Part shown: positions 426-8,194 of the stretch, one piece after another
Numbering within the stretch: the first letter of the stretch is position 1
Layout: every line of letters starts with the position of its first letter
From: Oscillospiraceae bacterium
GTDB lineage: Bacteria > Bacillota > Clostridia > Oscillospirales > Oscillospiraceae
Length of the DNA: 64,000 nucleotides
Direction of reading: 5' to 3'
Assembly (NCBI GenBank): GCA_017461585.1
Contig: JAFTYM010000037.1
Location: forward strand, 1 to 64,000
Notes under the pieces: generated by a model
What the model was told of the DNA's origin: nothing
The model's database searches: none
The model's input: only the letters and a program-made list of their open reading frames with translations
Program-made: the position numbers and the translations under genes

Positions 426-659
426 ATGACCGCTTTGGACAGTATATGCACGGGAGAGAGTGTCCGTGTGGTGAAAATATATTTGAATGACAGCATGCGC
501 GGCAGGCTTTTTGATATAGGCTTTACGGAGGGAACGGAAATTACGTGTGTGGGAAAAAGTCCTTCGGGTGATCCTTATGCGTTTCTTGTAAGAGGTTCTG
601 TGTTTGCTTTGAGAAAAAAAGATTGCAAGAGGATTTTTGTCAGCAGGGAAGGTGTATGA
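426..659 (+). CDS. feoA: FeoA ferrous iron transport accessory protein
   Basis: A 77-residue SH3-like FeoA protein, of normal family length. The typical pattern is visible: an early 'V.KI' strand, then a glycine-rich stretch containing RLFDIGFTEG, and a C-terminal 'R.SVFALRK..C' strand. FeoA proteins act in the cytoplasm with FeoB in Fe(II) uptake. The start is supported by a GGGAGTGAG ribosome-binding site. Its TGA stop overlaps the feoB ATG (ATGA), so the two are translationally coupled. Its partner FeoB is interrupted here, so its present use is uncertain. Confidence 0.9.
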   Translation: MTALDSICTGESVRVVKIYLNDSMRGRLFDIGFTEGTEITCVGKSPSGDPYAFLVRGSVFALRKKDCKRIFVSREGV

Positions 660-1843
660 AAATGGGTGAGAAGAAAAAGCTCACAGTATGTCTTGCGGGA
701 AATCCGAATGTGGGCAAAAGTACACTTTTCAATGCCCTTACAGGCGGAAAGCAGCATACGGGAAACTGGACGGGCAAGACGGTTTTAGCGGCGAAAGGCT
801 GCTGTGAAAGCGAAAAGTGTGAGTTTGAGATAGTTGACCTTCCCGGTACATACTCTCTTTCCCCGCGCTCAGCAGAGGAAGAGGTAACGAGGGACTATAT
901 CCTGAAGCAGAAGTATGACGGCGTTGTTGTGGTGTGTGATGCAGGTGCTCTTGAGAGAAACTTGAATCTTGTTTTGCAGATAGCTGAGATAACTGACAGA
1001 GTTATCGTGTGTGTCAATCTTTTGGATGAGGCGGAAAAGCGGGGAATAAGGGTTGATCTGCAAAAGCTGTCGCAGCTTTTGGGTGTGCCTGTTGTGGGGA
1101 CAGTCGCAAAGCGAAAGAAGAGCGTTAGCGGGCTTTTAAAAACCATGGAGCTTTTTGCGGAGAGGTGGAACGCGGAATCCGTCAAACCCGTATATCCCGT
1201 GCAGACCGAGATGTGTATTTCAGAACTTGAAATGAAGCTCGGAATTTGCAGATATACTGCGGTGCGTTATCTCACAGGGGAAATGGCGCCAAGTGATGAA
1301 AATGCAGAAGTGGTGGATGAAGCATACAAAAAGTGGGCGAATATGACGAAAAGTGGAGAATTGATGCAGGATGTGGTGGGGAAAACCATAACAAGTGCAG
1401 CAGAACGGATAATCGCGCAGGTGACGGACGGCGAGAAAAACGGATACGGTGCACGGGATAGAAAGCTCGACAGGATACTTACAAGTAAAGCAGCAGGATA
1501 TCCTGCTATGGTTGCATTTCTGGCGGTGATTCTGTGGATAACCATAGTGGGGGCAAATTACCCGTCACAGCTGCTTTCGATGATGTTTTCCGCTGTTGAG
1601 AGCAAGCTGACGGAGCTGCTTGTATATCTTGGCGCTCCCGATTGGTTGTACGGAGCGTTAGTTTTGGGAGTGTACCGGGTGCTGTCGTGGGTAGTATCAG
1701 TGATGCTGCCGCCCATGGCGATATTCTTTCCGCTTTTTACACTTCTGGAGGATGCAGGCTACTTACCGCGTATAGCGTATAACCTCGATAAACCCTTTCA
1801 GAAGTGCAGCGCCTGCGGCAAGCAGGCCCTTACCATGTGGTGA
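656..1843 (+). pseudogene. feoB: feoB 5' half (G domain and first membrane segments), interrupted by a mobile element
   Basis: The first 395 codons of a FeoB ferrous iron transporter. The G1 motif GNPNVGKST is at residues 15-23 and DLPG at 61-64; then come the helical spacer, the first membrane helices and the gate motif LPPMAIFFPLF. The start is the ATG overlapping the feoA stop, with an AGGGAAGG site upstream. The frame follows normal FeoB to KQALTM, then reads one foreign codon (TGG) and a TGA, because the element begins here. The missing half starts at 7361. Joining the halves at the shared CATGTG gives 670 residues in frame. A truncated G domain plus partial membrane domain could be made, but should not transport iron. 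Confidence 0.92.
1834..1839 (+). other. left attachment-site core (CATGTG) of the feoB element
   Basis: CATGTG occurs at the exact point where FeoB homology stops and again where it resumes (7360-7365). Left of the core is host feoB sequence. Right of it, after three bases, is the arm AGGGTTTA (1843-1850), the exact reverse complement of the arm next to the right core. The six-base identity and the centred symmetry fit a serine-recombinase crossover site, with TG as the probable central dinucleotide. Confidence 0.85.
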
Positions 1844-1846
1844 GGG

Positions 1847-1876
1847 TTTACAGTATGAGAAAATACGTGATATACT
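1847..1876 (+). promoter_or_regulatory. promoter at the left end of the element, for the MFS-GH2 gene
   Basis: TTTACA (1847-1852) and TATACT (1871-1876) are separated by 18 bp, and AAGGGGG lies before the ATG at 1905. The -35 box overlaps the inverted arm of the attachment site, so promoter and recombination site share sequence. Predicted from consensus only. Confidence 0.5.
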
Positions 1877-1904
1877 GTTGATTAATGAAAAAGGGGGTCT
1901 GTTT

Positions 1905-4877
1905 ATGAAGACAAAGCTCTCGCCACGCTTTTGGTGTGCGCTTACGTTATTCAGCCTTATCGGACAGGTTGCATGGGTCGTTGAAAACATGTATTTCAAC
2001 GTGTTCATCTATAAAATGTTCAACGCCTCTGCAAGTGATATATCTGCCATGGTCGCTGCCAGCGCAGTTGCAGCAACGCTGACTACTGTGTTTATGGGCG
2101 CACTGTCCGACAGAGTGGGAAAGCGCAAGCTGTTTATTTGCGGCGGATATATTCTGTGGGGCATATCTATTTTCAGCTTTGTGCTTTTGCGCGTTGATGT
2201 TATAGAGAAAATGTTCCCCATGGCGGCATCTGCTGCGGCTGTGGGTGCTTCTCTTGTAATTATCATGGACTGCGTTATGACCTTTTTCGGCTCAACAGCC
2301 AATGATGCTGCCTTTAACGCATGGGTGACAGACTCTAGCGACAGCACAAACAGAGGCGCCGTTGAGGGCATAAACGCCATGATGCCATTGGTTGCCATAC
2401 TCGTCGTATTCGGCGGATTTATGGCGTTTGATTTGTCGGATTCTGACAGCTGGGTGTGGATATTCACCATTATCGGCATCGCCGTGTTTGCTGTTGGTAT
2501 TCTCGGCTGCTTCCTCATAAAAGACCCTGACATAAAGCCCACTCAGACAGGTTATTTCAAAAACATTTTCTACGGATTTTTGCCCTCCACAGTTAAGAAA
2601 AATCCTGTTTTTTACATAGCTTTAGGCGTTTTTGCCCTGTTTAACATCTCGATTCAGATTTTTATGCCGTACCTCATTTTGTACTATGAGGTGTCGCTTA
2701 AAATGACAAACTATGTATTTGTCATGGCGCCTGCCATAATCCTCGCCTCTGTTGTAACGGCATTCTGGGGCAAGGTATATGACAAAAAAGGCTTCGGTTT
2801 TTCATCCGCAATCTCCCTTTTGTGGCTGTGCCTCGGTTATATCGTTCTCTTTTTCACAAGAGCAACTGCCTTTGTATTTGTTGGCTCTCTGCTTATGATG
2901 TGCGGATACCTTGCAGGTATGGCTGTGTTCGGGGCGATGATACGTGACTATACTCCGAAAGGCAAGTCGGGAATGTTCCAGGGACTTAGAATTTTTGCTC
3001 AGGTGCTTATTCCCGGAGTTATCGGACCCTATATCGGTGCTGCGGTGCTCTCGGGAGCAGAGCAGATAACAAACAGCGACGGAACTGTATCTTTTGTGCC
3101 CAATGCCAATATTTTCCTTGCTGCACTTGTTGTGATCATTGTGCTCATTCCCTTTGCCGTATATCTTTCCAAAAAGAAAAAGCCCCGTACCGTGGAGCTT
3201 AAGACGCCTTGGGAAGAGAATATGGGTGAGATACCGTGGCAGGAATATCCCAGACCGTCTTTAGAGCGAGAGTCTTACCTGTGCTTAAACGGAGCGTGGG
3301 AACTGTTTGTTGTTAAAACAAACGGGGAAATGACAGGTTATGAGGTAACTGTTCCGTTCCCGCCTGAATCTCACGCATCCGGTATCGGACTTGAACTCAA
3401 AAAAGGCGAAAAGCTGATGTATCGCCTGAATGTCACATTGCCCGACGGATTCAAAAAGGACAGGCTCCTGCTGAACTTTGGTGCATGCGACCAGATAGCC
3501 GAGGTTTTTGTAAACAATAAGCACGTTGGAACCCATGAGGGCGGATATCTGCCCTTTACCTGCGATGTTACAGACAGCTTCGTCGAGGGCGAGAATATAA
3601 TAGGTGTCCTTGTGACAGATGATCTTGACACAGATTACCCCTACGGAAAACAGAGAGAAAAGCGCGGCGGAATGTGGTATACCCCCATAAGCGGTATCTG
3701 GCAGACTGTATGGATGGAGAGCGTCTGCGGGGAATATATCAAAAATATCCGCATAACTCCCGACCTTACAGGTGTGCTTGTTGAAGTTGAGGGCGGCGCT
3801 GATGAGAAATGTCTGACACTTGAAAACGGTGAAAGCTATACATTCACGGGAAATTCCTGCAGAATTGATATTGCGGAAGCCAAGCTATGGACGCCTGAAG
3901 AGCCGAATATTTACCGCTTTACACTAAAGAGCGGAGAGGATGCGGTAAAATCCTATTTTGCGCTCAGAACTGTTGAGACTAAGGGCGCGGATATTCTGCT
4001 GAACGGAAAGCCCTATTTCTTTAACGGACTATTAGACCAGGGATATTACAGCGACGGAATTTATCTGCCTGCATCTCCCGAAGGCTATAAATACGATATT
4101 CTGAAAATGAAAGAGCTGGGCTTCAATATGCTGCGAAAGCACATCAAGGTCGAGCCGGAGCTGTTTTACTACTACTGCGATATTTACGGTATGGCAGTAT
4201 TTCAGGATATGGTCAACAGCGGAAAGTACAGCTTTATGTTTGATACTGCGCTGCCGACTGTTGGTTTTAAAAAGGGAATTACCCACAAGGCAAGTGAAAA
4301 GCGCGCTGCTATATTTGCGGATAGTGTTAAAGAAACGCTGGAGTATCTGTACAATTTCCCGTGTATATGCTATTACACACTCTTTAACGAGGGGTGGGGG
4401 CAGTTTGATACGCAGAAAATGTACGAGCTTGCAAAGAGCGTTGACTCCACTCGTGTATGGGACACAGCATCGGGCTGGTTTGAAGGTGCGGAAAGTGATG
4501 TTATAAGTGAGCATGTATACTTTAAACCCGTTAAGCTTAAAAAGGGAGATAAACCCCTTGTGCTGTCTGAGTTCGGCGGATACTCCTGCAGAGTTGCAGA
4601 CCATATTTTCAATCTCGACAACAACTACGGCTACCGCCTGTTTAAAAGCTGCGATGAGCTGACAGATGCTCTTTGCAAGCTTTACAGGGATGAGATAATC
4701 CCGGCAATCAAAAATGACGGACTTTGTGCCGCTGTTTTAACACAGGTCAGCGATGTTGAGGACGAAACAAACGGACTTGTGACCTATGACAGACAGGTTC
4801 TCAAAGTGGATGCAGAGAAGATAAGCGAAGTTATGGCAGAAGTTTTTGATGCATTTGAGAAAAGAGGAGATATATGA
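1905..4877 (+). CDS. MFS transporter fused to a GH2-family glycoside hydrolase
   Basis: A 990-residue two-part protein. Residues 1 to about 420 form a major-facilitator carrier with about 12 membrane helices and a cytoplasmic GALSDRVGKRK loop. After a lysine-rich cytoplasmic boundary, residues from about 440 form a glycoside hydrolase family 2 enzyme with sugar-binding domain (LNGAWEL), immunoglobulin-like domain and TIM barrel. The acid/base is likely E829 (FNEGWGQ) and the nucleophile E889 (LSEFGG). The hydrolase would sit in the cytoplasm, cleaving sugar as it enters. The ATG at 1905 was chosen over 1878 because of the AAGGGGG site and the natural MFS N-terminus. The substrate cannot be named: beta-glucuronidase, beta-galactosidase and related GH2 activities are all possible. 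Confidence 0.85.
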   Translation: MKTKLSPRFWCALTLFSLIGQVAWVVENMYFNVFIYKMFNASASDISAMVAASAVAATLTTVFMGALSDRVGKRKLFICGGYILWGISIFSFVLLRVDVIEKMFPMAASAAAVGASLVIIMDCVMTFFGSTANDAAFNAWVTDSSDSTNRGAVEGINAMMPLVAILVVFGGFMAFDLSDSDSWVWIFTIIGIAVFAVGILGCFLIKDPDIKPTQTGYFKNIFYGFLPSTVKKNPVFYIALGVFALFNISIQIFMPYLILYYEVSLKMTNYVFVMAPAIILASVVTAFWGKVYDKKGFGFSSAISLLWLCLGYIVLFFTRATAFVFVGSLLMMCGYLAGMAVFGAMIRDYTPKGKSGMFQGLRIFAQVLIPGVIGPYIGAAVLSGAEQITNSDGTVSFVPNANIFLAALVVIIVLIPFAVYLSKKKKPRTVELKTPWEENMGEIPWQEYPRPSLERESYLCLNGAWELFVVKTNGEMTGYEVTVPFPPESHASGIGLELKKGEKLMYRLNVTLPDGFKKDRLLLNFGACDQIAEVFVNNKHVGTHEGGYLPFTCDVTDSFVEGENIIGVLVTDDLDTDYPYGKQREKRGGMWYTPISGIWQTVWMESVCGEYIKNIRITPDLTGVLVEVEGGADEKCLTLENGESYTFTGNSCRIDIAEAKLWTPEEPNIYRFTLKSGEDAVKSYFALRTVETKGADILLNGKPYFFNGLLDQGYYSDGIYLPASPEGYKYDILKMKELGFNMLRKHIKVEPELFYYYCDIYGMAVFQDMVNSGKYSFMFDTALPTVGFKKGITHKASEKRAAIFADSVKETLEYLYNFPCICYYTLFNEGWGQFDTQKMYELAKSVDSTRVWDTASGWFEGAESDVISEHVYFKPVKLKKGDKPLVLSEFGGYSCRVADHIFNLDNNYGYRLFKSCDELTDALCKLYRDEIIPAIKNDGLCAAVLTQVSDVEDETNGLVTYDRQVLKVDAEKISEVMAEVFDAFEKRGDI

Positions 4878-5158
4878 AGTGTCTCAGATGTGATGGAGAA
4901 ATGAAATTCATTGGCTCTGAAAAGCTGCAGCTTGGCAAAACCGGGTGGATACTGGGCGATTTGCCTAATCTGTTAAGTGGAGCTCTTGGAGTAGGAATAT
5001 ACTGCTGCGATAAGTGCGGGAAGTATGAGTTTTTCAGAACTGAGTCTGAGTGTGACGAAGAAGAGGAAAACTCAATGCCTCAAAAGAGCTGCCCGAAGTG
5101 CGGCAAGACATATGACATGGACTATTACAGGTGCCCGTTTTGCAAATATGAATACTAA
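4874..5158 (+). CDS. small double zinc-ribbon protein
   Basis: A 94-residue protein with two predicted metal-binding knuckle pairs: CLRC with CCDKC in the first half, and CPKC with CPFC in the last 25 residues, separated by an acidic linker. Its ATG overlaps the TGA of the MFS-GH2 gene (ATGA), so the two are co-translated. Function is unknown; zinc ribbons of this size often bind nucleic acid or partner proteins. It ends just before a strong terminator, closing the left-hand operon of the mobile element. Confidence 0.75.
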   Translation: MKCLRCDGEMKFIGSEKLQLGKTGWILGDLPNLLSGALGVGIYCCDKCGKYEFFRTESECDEEEENSMPQKSCPKCGKTYDMDYYRCPFCKYEY

Positions 5159-5162
5159 AACA

Positions 5163-5194
5163 AAAACACCTCGACTATTAAGTCGAGGTGTTTT
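5163..5194. terminator. bidirectional intrinsic terminator
   Basis: A perfect 14-bp stem (AAAACACCTCGACT, loop ATTA, then its complement) with A and T runs on both sides. It lies between the convergent zinc-ribbon and cupin genes and can terminate both. Confidence 0.9.
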
Positions 5195-5206
5195 AATTTT
5201 GTTTAC

Positions 5207-6307
5207 TTATTTAGGAAGATCTGTTCCCTTGTAGGTGTAGACGATTTCGCCGTTTTCCTTCATTTCCTGAACGATCTTGCCATAGTTTCCGCTGGGATAG
5301 AGCGGCATAAACTGAACAGGAGCACCGACGCGCTTGAATTTAACAGGACCGTGCCAGTATCCCTCGGGGATGCGGACTGCTGTGGGCTCTGTAATTGTGT
5401 AAGTATCCATCTTATCGGGAGATTCGCCGATGGAAATCTCGATTTCCGCATCGAACTCGAAGAAATGAGTGATGTCAGCACCTGTGAAGAAGTAATACTC
5501 TTCAGCGTTGTGGTGCATGTGTGTGCATCCTATCTCGCAAGCCTGCTGAACGATGTTGTTCAGGGTGTACATACGGGATTCGGGCATTACCTCGCGACCG
5601 CGGAAACCTGTTCTGGGGCTGAGGAAGCGAGGATCGTCATGATACTCGGGCTTATAGTAGTGTACATACTTGTCAAACTTGCCTGTTCTGGGTCTCTTGC
5701 CCATTTCATAGTAGGGAACAAGAATGTCGAGAGGATTCTTTTCCTGATCCTGCTCTGCTCGCTCTTTCATTTTCTCGGAGAAGCATGCGCCGCAGTAGAT
5801 ACATTCCTTTGTGCGGTCGTTTACGCAGCGGCGGATGCCTGCACCGTCATATCTGAAGTCTTCACGGCCTTCTTCGTTGATGAAGGGAGAGATCTTGGAC
5901 CAGTCGCCGTCAAGATAAATAGCCATGAAGAGAACGGGCTTGCCAACGCGGCGGAAGTTGATGGGACAGTGATAGAGTTTGGGAGGAATGCGTACGATAA
6001 CAGGCTCTGTAAATGTGAACTGCTCCATGTTCTCAGGGTCGTCACCAAGCCAGAAATCAATTTCTGCGTCAAATCCGTCATAGAAGTTGTTGAAGTCAGC
6101 GTTTGCAAGAACGATGTATTCATCAACTGCGTGGTGGACGTGGGGTACTTCCATAACCAGAGGCTTTACAATGGAAGTGTAGTCCATATATACCTTGGCC
6201 TTCTCCATCATTGTAGTTCCGCGGAAGAAACCACGGGGAGATGCGAAGCCGTACCAACTGTGAAATTCCTGAGGAATTTTGAATACCAGATCGTCATATT
6301 TGCCCAT
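5207..6307 (-). CDS. double-cupin domain protein, unknown function
   Basis: A 366-residue protein built from two similar cupin-like halves. Each has a histidine cluster followed by Glu-Tyr (HVHHAVDEY near residue 56 and HMHHNAEEYY near residue 260), and each ends in a 'RIP..YWHGP..FKRVG.PV.FM' type strand pair. The linker carries CIYCGAC, a possible Fe-S or zinc site. The second ATG (6307) fits the GGAG site better than the ATG at 6313. Cupins include sugar isomerases, dioxygenases and sensors; carriage on a sugar-uptake element suggests, but does not show, a role in the released sugar's metabolism. It is divergent from the recombinase gene. Confidence 0.75.
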   Translation of the reverse strand: MGKYDDLVFKIPQEFHSWYGFASPRGFFRGTTMMEKAKVYMDYTSIVKPLVMEVPHVHHAVDEYIVLANADFNNFYDGFDAEIDFWLGDDPENMEQFTFTEPVIVRIPPKLYHCPINFRRVGKPVLFMAIYLDGDWSKISPFINEEGREDFRYDGAGIRRCVNDRTKECIYCGACFSEKMKERAEQDQEKNPLDILVPYYEMGKRPRTGKFDKYVHYYKPEYHDDPRFLSPRTGFRGREVMPESRMYTLNNIVQQACEIGCTHMHHNAEEYYFFTGADITHFFEFDAEIEISIGESPDKMDTYTITEPTAVRIPEGYWHGPVKFKRVGAPVQFMPLYPSGNYGKIVQEMKENGEIVYTYKGTDLPK

Positions 6308-6390
6308 AACCATATCTCCTTTATTAAATATAATTTTGTAAATTTTATCAAATTACTTCTTTTGTTTCAATCAGCCAGATACATATTTGT

Positions 6391-6422
6391 GCAAATTAGG
6401 CAAAACGGTTTGTGTAATTTGC
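6391..6422. promoter_or_regulatory. inverted repeat between the cupin and recombinase genes
   Basis: GCAAATTA (6391-6398) and its exact complement TAATTTGC (6415-6422) flank a 16-bp spacer just upstream of the recombinase ribosome-binding site. The position suits an operator controlling the recombinase or both divergent genes. No protein can be assigned to it. Confidence 0.45.
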
Positions 6423-6448
6423 ATATAAATAATACGGAGGTGGTCAGA

Positions 6449-7351
6449 TTGAAAAAATACCGTGCGGGCATATACATGCGCCTTTCAAAAGATGACGGCT
6501 TTGGTGAAAGCGCCAGTATTTCCACTCAGCGCAGCATATTAAAAAGATATGCTGATGAAAACGGTATAGAAGTGGTGGAAGAATATGCCGATGACGGATA
6601 TTCGGGAACAGGGTTTGAAAGACCGCAGTTTAAAAAGCTTATTGAGGATATTGAAACCGGTGCTGTAAATATGGTGATAGTTAAAGACCTGTCCCGCTTG
6701 GGGAGAAACAGCGCAAGAACATCAGATTATATTGACGAGTATTTTCCGCGCAAAAAGGTGCGGTTTATATCAGTTACAGACGGATATGACTCAGATAAAC
6801 CGACGGGCGGAATTGCCGCTGCGATGCCGCTGATGATGGCGGTGCATGAGATGTATGCAAGAGATACGTCGAATAAGATACGCAGCGCATTTTATGAGAA
6901 AATGCGGGAGGGCAAGTATATCGGCAGCTTTGCTCCTTACGGATATCTTAAAAGTACGGATGATAAAAACAGGCTGATCGTTAACATGGAAACAGCATGG
7001 ATCGTGGCGGAGATTTTTAATATGGCGCTTGAGCTTACGCCCTCAGCCATAGCGGAAAAACTGAATGTCAGAGGAATCTCAACACCGATGGAATATCGAA
7101 GAACAGGGGAGACTACATCTGAAAAGCCATGCTGGACAGCGTCCTCGGTGAATAAAATATTGAGGAATCCCGTCTATACAGGAGATATGGCGCAGGGGAG
7201 AACAACAAAAATATCGTTTAAATCAAAGGCAGTACGGGAAAACCCGAAAGAATACTGGATAGTTGCGGAAAACACTCACCAATACATAGTCAGCCGTGAG
7301 CAGTTTGAAACCGTGCAGGAAATAAGGCATATGCGAAAAACAAAGCATTAA
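6449..7351 (+). CDS. compact serine recombinase (site-specific integrase/excisionase)
   Basis: A 300-residue recombinase starting at a TTG with a GGAGGT site 8 bp upstream. The resolvase domain opens with IYMRLSKDDG, with catalytic Ser13, and contains KDLSRLGRN; the 'recombinase' domain follows (PYGYL, W...SV.KIL.NP.Y.G). Large serine integrases of clostridial elements usually run to 500-700 residues with a zinc ribbon and coiled coil after this point; both are absent. The stop codon lies inside the right att arm. It is the obvious candidate for inserting and removing the element, unless loss of the C-terminal part has inactivated it. Confidence 0.9.
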   Translation: MKKYRAGIYMRLSKDDGFGESASISTQRSILKRYADENGIEVVEEYADDGYSGTGFERPQFKKLIEDIETGAVNMVIVKDLSRLGRNSARTSDYIDEYFPRKKVRFISVTDGYDSDKPTGGIAAAMPLMMAVHEMYARDTSNKIRSAFYEKMREGKYIGSFAPYGYLKSTDDKNRLIVNMETAWIVAEIFNMALELTPSAIAEKLNVRGISTPMEYRRTGETTSEKPCWTASSVNKILRNPVYTGDMAQGRTTKISFKSKAVRENPKEYWIVAENTHQYIVSREQFETVQEIRHMRKTKH

Positions 7352-7359
7352 ACCCTTTA

Positions 7360-7365
7360 CATGTG
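7360..7365 (+). other. right attachment-site core (CATGTG) of the feoB element
   Basis: Second copy of the core. Left of it, after three bases, is the element arm TAAACCCT (7349-7356), the reverse complement of the arm beside the left core. Right of it feoB resumes with TATGGGGTTC, encoding the conserved MGF after the junction cysteine. Confidence 0.85.
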
Positions 7366-8194
7366 TATGGGGTTCGGGTGCAATGCAGTAGGAGTAACTG
7401 GCTGCAGGATAATTGACTCACCGCGTGAGCGGCTGCTGGCGATACTTACCAATGCATTTGTGCCGTGCAACGGCAGATTTCCGGCAATGATAGCTGTCAT
7501 TACCATGTTTTTCGCGTTTGGTATGGCAGGCGTGCCTGCGCTTATTCTGACGCTTGTGCTGATATTCGGTGTGGTAATGACCTTTGCTGTGACACGGCTT
7601 TTGTCAAAGACACTACTTCGCGGCAAGGCGTCCTCTTTTATACTTGAGCTTCCGCCCTACAGAACGCCGCAGGTGGGGCAGGTGATAGTGCGTTCTCTTC
7701 TTGACAGGACATTGTTTGTTTTAGGAAGAGCGGTCTCTGTTGCTGCGCCTGCAGGACTTGTGATATGGATCATGGCGAATGTAACAATAGGAAATGTGAG
7801 CCTACTGAATATTTGTGCGGACTTTCTCAATCCATTTGCAAACCTGCTTGGACTTGACGGCATAATACTTATGGCGTTTATTCTCGGATTTCCAGCAAAT
7901 GAGATAGTCATACCTATTATAATAATGGCGTATACAGCATCAGGGACGGTTACTGACGTTGTATCGTTGGGGGAGATAAAAGAAATACTTGTGCAGAACG
8001 GCTGGACATGGATAACGGCGGTGAATATGGTGATATTTACACTTTTTCATTGGCCGTGTTCAACAACGCTTATCACGGTTAAAAAGGAGACGGGCAGCTT
8101 AAAGTGGACCGCACTTGCAGCGGCGCTGCCGACGGCTGCGGGCGTGATATTATGTTTTCTGTTTACAAGTGTCTGCAGAATTTTCGAAGTATAA
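7361..8194 (+). pseudogene. feoB: feoB 3' half (C-terminal membrane domain)
   Basis: Encodes the rest of FeoB: CMGFGCNAVGVTGCRII (the conserved second gate region), then about seven membrane helices to the C-terminus. An ATG happens to fall at the junction, so an ORF of 277 codons exists, but there is no ribosome-binding site before it (the upstream bases are the att arm). It is therefore probably silent while the element is present. With codons 1-394 of the 5' half it makes a FeoB of ordinary length, with no internal stop or frameshift, so the gene seems intact apart from the insertion. Confidence 0.92.

Follow-up and report, generated by a model that had tools for sequence, protein, structure and literature searches.

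Results

An Element Splits feoB at a Single ATG Codon

The DNA analyzed here (the window, 64,000 nucleotides) lies within contig C22 of an Oscillospiraceae draft genome (2.07 Mb in 54 contigs, 79% complete). An element of about 5.5 kb (1834..7365) splits feoB at a single ATG codon (1835-1837), which sits in the conserved FeoB motif T-M-C-M-G-F-G-C-N. The features of the locus are as follows.

426..659, + strand: feoA-like gene upstream of feoB (by eye only)
656..1837, + strand: 5′ part of feoB, 394 codons, target ATG codon included (FeoB_N, E 1.4e-58; NCBIfam feoB, E 5e-76)
1834..1839, + strand: attL core CATGTG (sequence), with the inferred crossover dinucleotide TG at 1836-1837
1843..1850, + strand: left attP arm AGGGTTTA (sequence, dyad analysis)
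1905..4877, + strand: MFS transporter fused to a GH2 glycosidase, 990 aa (MFS_1 and Glyco_hydro_2 domains)
4874..5158, + strand: 94-aa protein with CxxC pairs by eye; no Pfam or NCBIfam match
5207..6313, − strand: 368-aa protein, two-copy cupin-like by eye only; no Pfam or NCBIfam match
6449..7351, + strand: serine recombinase, 300 aa, TTG start; Resolvase and Recombinase domains only
7349..7356, + strand: right attP arm TAAACCCT (sequence, dyad analysis); its first three bases are the recombinase stop TAA
7360..7365, + strand: attR core CATGTG (sequence), with TG at 7362-7363
7361..8194, + strand: 3′ part of feoB, 277 codons including the target ATG, plus stop; Gate and FeoB_C domains

A preliminary description of this DNA had recognized a serine-recombinase element dividing feoB, and the domain matches bear this out: both outer parts match FeoB, and the enzyme encoded in the element carries Resolvase (PF00239, E 3.4e-28) and Recombinase (PF07508, E 5.5e-24) domains. 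The FeoB_N and NCBIfam feoB matches both start at base 659, and the 5′ part was also identified by alignment with the intact FeoB of relatives. The 5′ frame runs into the element and stops there at TGA (1841-1843). Joining the sequences outside the element restores feoB exactly, the 394 codons from the ATG at 656 to the target ATG being followed by 276 codons (7364-8191); the codon count confirms the 670-codon frame, without a stop, that had been proposed. CATGTG is indeed found at both junctions, as the same description had it. The G+C content of the element is 45.5%, against 46.6-47.5% in the flanks.

The Element Ends Form a Symmetric attP Centered on TG

The proposed attP symmetry is also seen. 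The arms TAAACCCT and AGGGTTTA are exact complements over an 8-base run, and once the ends are joined, 11 of the 18 positions surrounding the target codon's TG form pairs. Random window pairs (20,000) give a mean pairing of 4.56 (sd 1.89) against the 11 observed, and among 100,000 such pairs 0.13% reach 11 and 0.017% show an 8-base run.

We rebuilt the ends of 12 elements in feoB, 10 of them with recombinases of the window clade, and tried 13 offsets. The dyad peaks at offset 0 in all 10 clade elements scanned, in support of TG as the crossover center. Scores out of 18 are 17 for Lacrimispora amygdalina, 16 for G129, 15 for G008, 14 for G243, 13 for G413, 12 for G031, 11 for the window, 10 each for G306 and G104, and 7 for G020 (G numbers denote genomes); the weak dyads of the last three count against the explanation that we favor below. 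G226 scores 12, at offset 0 only. In G373 and G026, the dyad lies two bases further on (15/18 and 13/18). The shared core is reduced to CCATG in G031 and to CATGA in G008, which fits TG as the crossover, and the attP arms vary between elements.

The Same Codon Is Split in Other Genomes

The C-terminal part of FeoB is found in 196 of 400 family genomes (E <= 1e-60), at least 18 of which are split at the target codon. Window-clade recombinases account for 14 (G000, G413, G104, G129, G306, G031, G243, G008, G020, G374, G342, G226, G398, and G340) and a distant recombinase type for four (G415, G373, G230, and, by its dyad alone, G026, where no recombinase was found within 20 kb); G374, G342, G398, G340, and G415 were judged from the right junction only. 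Eighteen is a minimum, drawn from 150 of the 196 matches, among which 15 with shorter frames were fetched besides earlier ones, and from the recombinase search; a long frame can hide a split, as G342 shows. G309 is not among the 18. The site is uninterrupted in G167, G122, G304, and G163, whose short frames are due to contig ends. Two cases outside the 400-genome set also have the target codon split: L. amygdalina and the IMG/VR contig L134. Empty sites, anticipated for relatives, do occur: 35 checked relatives of other species hold both halves in one frame across the codon. The four same-genus genomes have only a distant FeoB and so give no view of the ancestral state in the genus.

The three best non-self matches to the window recombinase among 60 relatives (G008, G031, and G020) all sit at the target codon of feoB; so does the top genome_contigs match, from L. 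amygdalina. At E <= 1e-115, related recombinases occur in 31 of the 400 family genomes, and feoB sequence lies beside the recombinase at 11 of the 30 loci fetched. In a first tree (49 rows), the 11 feoB-labelled recombinases (L048 inferred) form one group supported at 93/93, with the window outermost. A second tree (41 rows) comprises the feoB rows, eight first-tree loci, L134, and a subset of 17 from the 30 loci of the recombinase search; of the other 13, five were already present under other names, and eight, at which no feoB was found, were omitted along with three matches lacking a locus. Here the window clade has 18 rows, at 93/92; in both trees its support is just below the program's mark of 95. 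Fifteen of these rows adjoin feoB sequence; L048, from Lacrimispora sp., is placed in feoB by inference from its contig end, which falls on CATGTG, and G197 and G400 are not next to feoB. With these two exceptions, the feoB label needs three changes on the second tree, whose inner branching is only partly resolved. The window sits on a long branch (0.76 and 0.99 changes per column), and the trees do not fix its position within the clade. The G129 recombinase lies in two frames and is in neither tree. The window recombinase thus groups with recombinases lying in feoB.

We considered G197 as a free element, since its clade recombinase is followed by an apparent unrecombined two-armed site (L256 near 3013, G197:C55) and its feoB is intact. 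It was not counted as a circle because its contig ends do not overlap and, by eye, the genes on that contig look like ordinary metabolic ones. Furthermore, the two-armed site, whose dyad is weak, is absent from the six best of the contig dyad scan, which argues against the attP reading.

feoB Has Further Insertion Sites

In L. amygdalina (L047, G423:C54, NZ_OAOF01000001), one feoB copy carries three serine-recombinase insertions, each at a conserved motif: 2.4 kb with a 464-aa serine recombinase between QHTG and NW, 4.9 kb at the ATG codon, and 25.5 kb at VPCNGRF. Another feoB in this genome is uninterrupted, with a 728-aa frame. In G230, a single contig (C1 about 1115481-1189360), feoB is interrupted twice, by 38.5 kb at the ATG codon and by 35.2 kb at VPCNGRF, and feoB also breaks off at VPCNGRF in L134, L261 (G398), and L262 (G340). 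The VPCNGRF site was seen interrupted only where the ATG codon of the same gene was split as well. At G041:C9 34011-36110 (L077), feoB breaks off at about residue 352, near a contig end; a distantly related serine recombinase is encoded nearby.

The Window Recombinase Lacks Its C-Terminal Region

The window recombinase has 300 aa against 532-549 aa in eight clade relatives; in the alignment with these it ends at RKTK-H, so that about 240 C-terminal residues are missing, and nine bases separate its stop codon from the second target ATG. The preliminary description did not mention this truncation. Pfam found neither Zn_ribbon_recom nor DUF4368 in it, whereas the L073 and L047 recombinases have both (DUF4368 of L047 below cut-off). 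The region of the coiled coil that is inserted in the zinc ribbon is, by the alignment, likewise missing from the window enzyme. DNA binding is described as deficient in a Listeria phage serine integrase that lacks its zinc domain (PMC3783163). Judged from its sequence, excision of the window copy by its own recombinase is unlikely.

The missing part does not appear to be encoded elsewhere in the genome, where the only match (29%) lies inside a distant 466-aa recombinase. This recombinase is also the only other match to the window enzyme in the 79%-complete genome, in which no full-length relative was found; it is possible that one is encoded in the unassembled part, and the truncation itself could be an assembly fault of the draft. 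Broken recombinases also occur in G020, G129, and L048, and at least four of the 17 clade members in feoB (16 tree rows including L048, plus G129) have one.

Cargo Differs between Elements

Elements at the ATG codon range from 3.0 kb (G020) to 38.5 kb (G230). Their cargo varies: DsbD-redoxin and VanW-like genes in L. amygdalina, glutamate dehydrogenase in G306, an AAA ATPase in G129, and relaxase, TIR, and type III restriction genes in G031. Among the four window-element proteins scanned, Pfam gave no match to relaxase or transfer genes. The MFS-GH2 fusion or one of its halves has a match in 111 of 400 family genomes (E <= 1e-80). MFS and GH2, one frame in the window, are two adjacent genes in several relatives. 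We looked for the same cargo elsewhere: the closest fusion (G173, 65%) lies on a 17-kb contig without a match to the recombinase, the 94-aa gene, or the 368-aa gene. The 368-aa protein has a 76% identical homologue in the same-genus genome G004, and against PDB sequences it gave two matches only, at E 0.76 and 0.97. Another same-genus genome, G003, holds 24 matches to it, and in G001 a homologue lies 1.3 kb from the start of a distant feoB.

Most Split feoB Genes Are Undecayed

We scored decay by counting mismatches at those alignment columns that 95% or more of 35 intact FeoB share, leaving each intact gene out in turn. The window feoB has three mismatches in 204 conserved columns, and the 35 intact genes have a mean of 2.6 (range 0-12). 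Other split genes show 3 (G031), 1 (G413), 9 (G129), 3 (G306), 0 (G243), 0 (G104), and 6 (G373); G008 (13) and G020 (16) lie above the intact range, so that eight of the 10 split genes scored whole fall within it. L. amygdalina has eight mismatches with 83 columns lacking, and genes scored over the 3′ half only have 7 (G374), 0 (G415), and 1 (G026). These scores suggest that most insertions are young relative to the pace of gene decay, or that the gene is still used; the undecayed state of the window feoB indicates that its insertion is probably young. The window genome has a second, uninterrupted FeoB (G000:C32, 675-aa frame, 26% identity).

Discussion

Together, these observations make it probable that the window holds a defective, locked-in member of a family of feoB-targeting serine-recombinase elements. 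Integration by a feoB-targeting serine recombinase is well supported, whereas we infer the order of events and the immobility of the window copy. A clade element would have integrated by attP × attB recombination at the TG of the target ATG codon, bringing in the MFS-GH2 gene and two further genes. The recombinase would then, presumably after integration, have lost its C-terminal region by an internal deletion that spared the attP arm, so that the window copy is probably unable to leave, barring the action of a related enzyme in trans. feoB would be off, or at best present as two separate pieces, with loss of FeoB function, part of which the distant intact FeoB elsewhere in the genome may cover.

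The preliminary description had also inferred that the element can leave and switch feoB back on, possibly as a reversible switch. Its site-specific integration into a coding gene stands, but exit is not supported for the window copy, given the absence of the C-terminal zinc-ribbon region. A reversible switch, in which the element's own recombinase would excise it and so restore feoB, either in some cells of the population or in response to a cue, as skin does for sigK, would draw on the exact restoration of the frame, on the lack of decay in eight of 10 split genes scored whole, and on the 532-549 aa recombinases of eight relatives; set against the truncated window enzyme and the differing cargo, it is improbable here. 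Excision in trans, once a related feoB-targeting recombinase enters the cell that holds this cis-immobile element, is a tentative possibility and rather unlikely on balance: both att sites of the window element are intact, and related enzymes are present in the family (the 31 of 400 genomes and 11 of 30 fetched loci above), but none was found in the window genome, and the differing arms make cross-recognition uncertain.

It is quite improbable that FeoB still functions as a pair of polypeptides, with the 3′ part translated from the target ATG, nine bases past the recombinase stop. Both halves are undecayed, and an ATG opens the 3′ part both in the window and in 14 clade relatives inspected at the right junction; this ATG is simply the target codon, however, no ribosome-binding site is visible by eye before 7361, and a recent insertion accounts for the absent decay. 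The draft state of the genome raises the prospect of an assembly join or chimera at 1834 or 7360, which we regard as extremely improbable because the same codon is split, with each element's own symmetric ends, in independent genomes, including the single-contig G104 and G230 and the isolate L. amygdalina. A locked-in element of a feoB-targeting family remains the reading that we favor; against it count the two clade members away from feoB, the long window branch, the modest clade support, the three weak dyads, a possible assembly fault behind the truncation, the incompleteness of the genome, and the lack of a close FeoB in the same-genus genomes.

The mechanism of such elements is already known, and it is feoB as a target hotspot that is newly seen here. 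In curated models, CcrB of SCCmec (107 bits) and XisF of the fdxN element (81.7 bits) match the window recombinase far below their cut-offs of 900 and 375. The G413 recombinase is 40% identical over 98% to plasmid records annotated as tndX, the recombinase gene of Tn5397; the window element, unlike Tn5397, has no relaxase or transfer gene. The targets of TndX differ from the feoB target. For site-specific recombinases, Durrant et al. (2022; PMC10083194) describe how serine recombinases from different lineages have come to target the same conserved site within a coding gene, for example that of a prolyl isomerase; the convergence is alike, but the target here is feoB. The same work ties DUF4368 to multi-targeting recombinases, yet the two clade members tested match DUF4368 (one below cut-off) and 15 of 18 clade members lie in one codon. 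skinCd of Clostridioides difficile is likewise a serine-recombinase element that splits a coding gene, and its excision restores the gene; as described, it has a working recombinase (CD1231), a directionality factor (CD1234), and developmental control, in contrast to the truncated window recombinase (PMC5025042). feoB has been listed as a gene in prophages (PMC13141850). Supplementary target lists (e.g., PMC10083194) aside, the literature searched did not contain the feoB target, two recombinase types two bases apart, or serial occupation.

A broader proposal is that feoB is a general docking gene in Clostridia, with several conserved-motif sites filled in turn, elements entering and leaving, and Fe(II) uptake silenced repeatedly and reversibly; we consider it doubtful. 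What the present data indicate is that feoB, which encodes the ferrous-iron importer, is a recurrent target of serine-recombinase elements in a large anaerobe family. This would be a predictable cause of losing an Fe(II) transporter and would give natural recombinase-att pairs sharing one conserved target. The elements, with recombinases from complete to broken, form a natural series for asking how gene-splitting elements become fixed.
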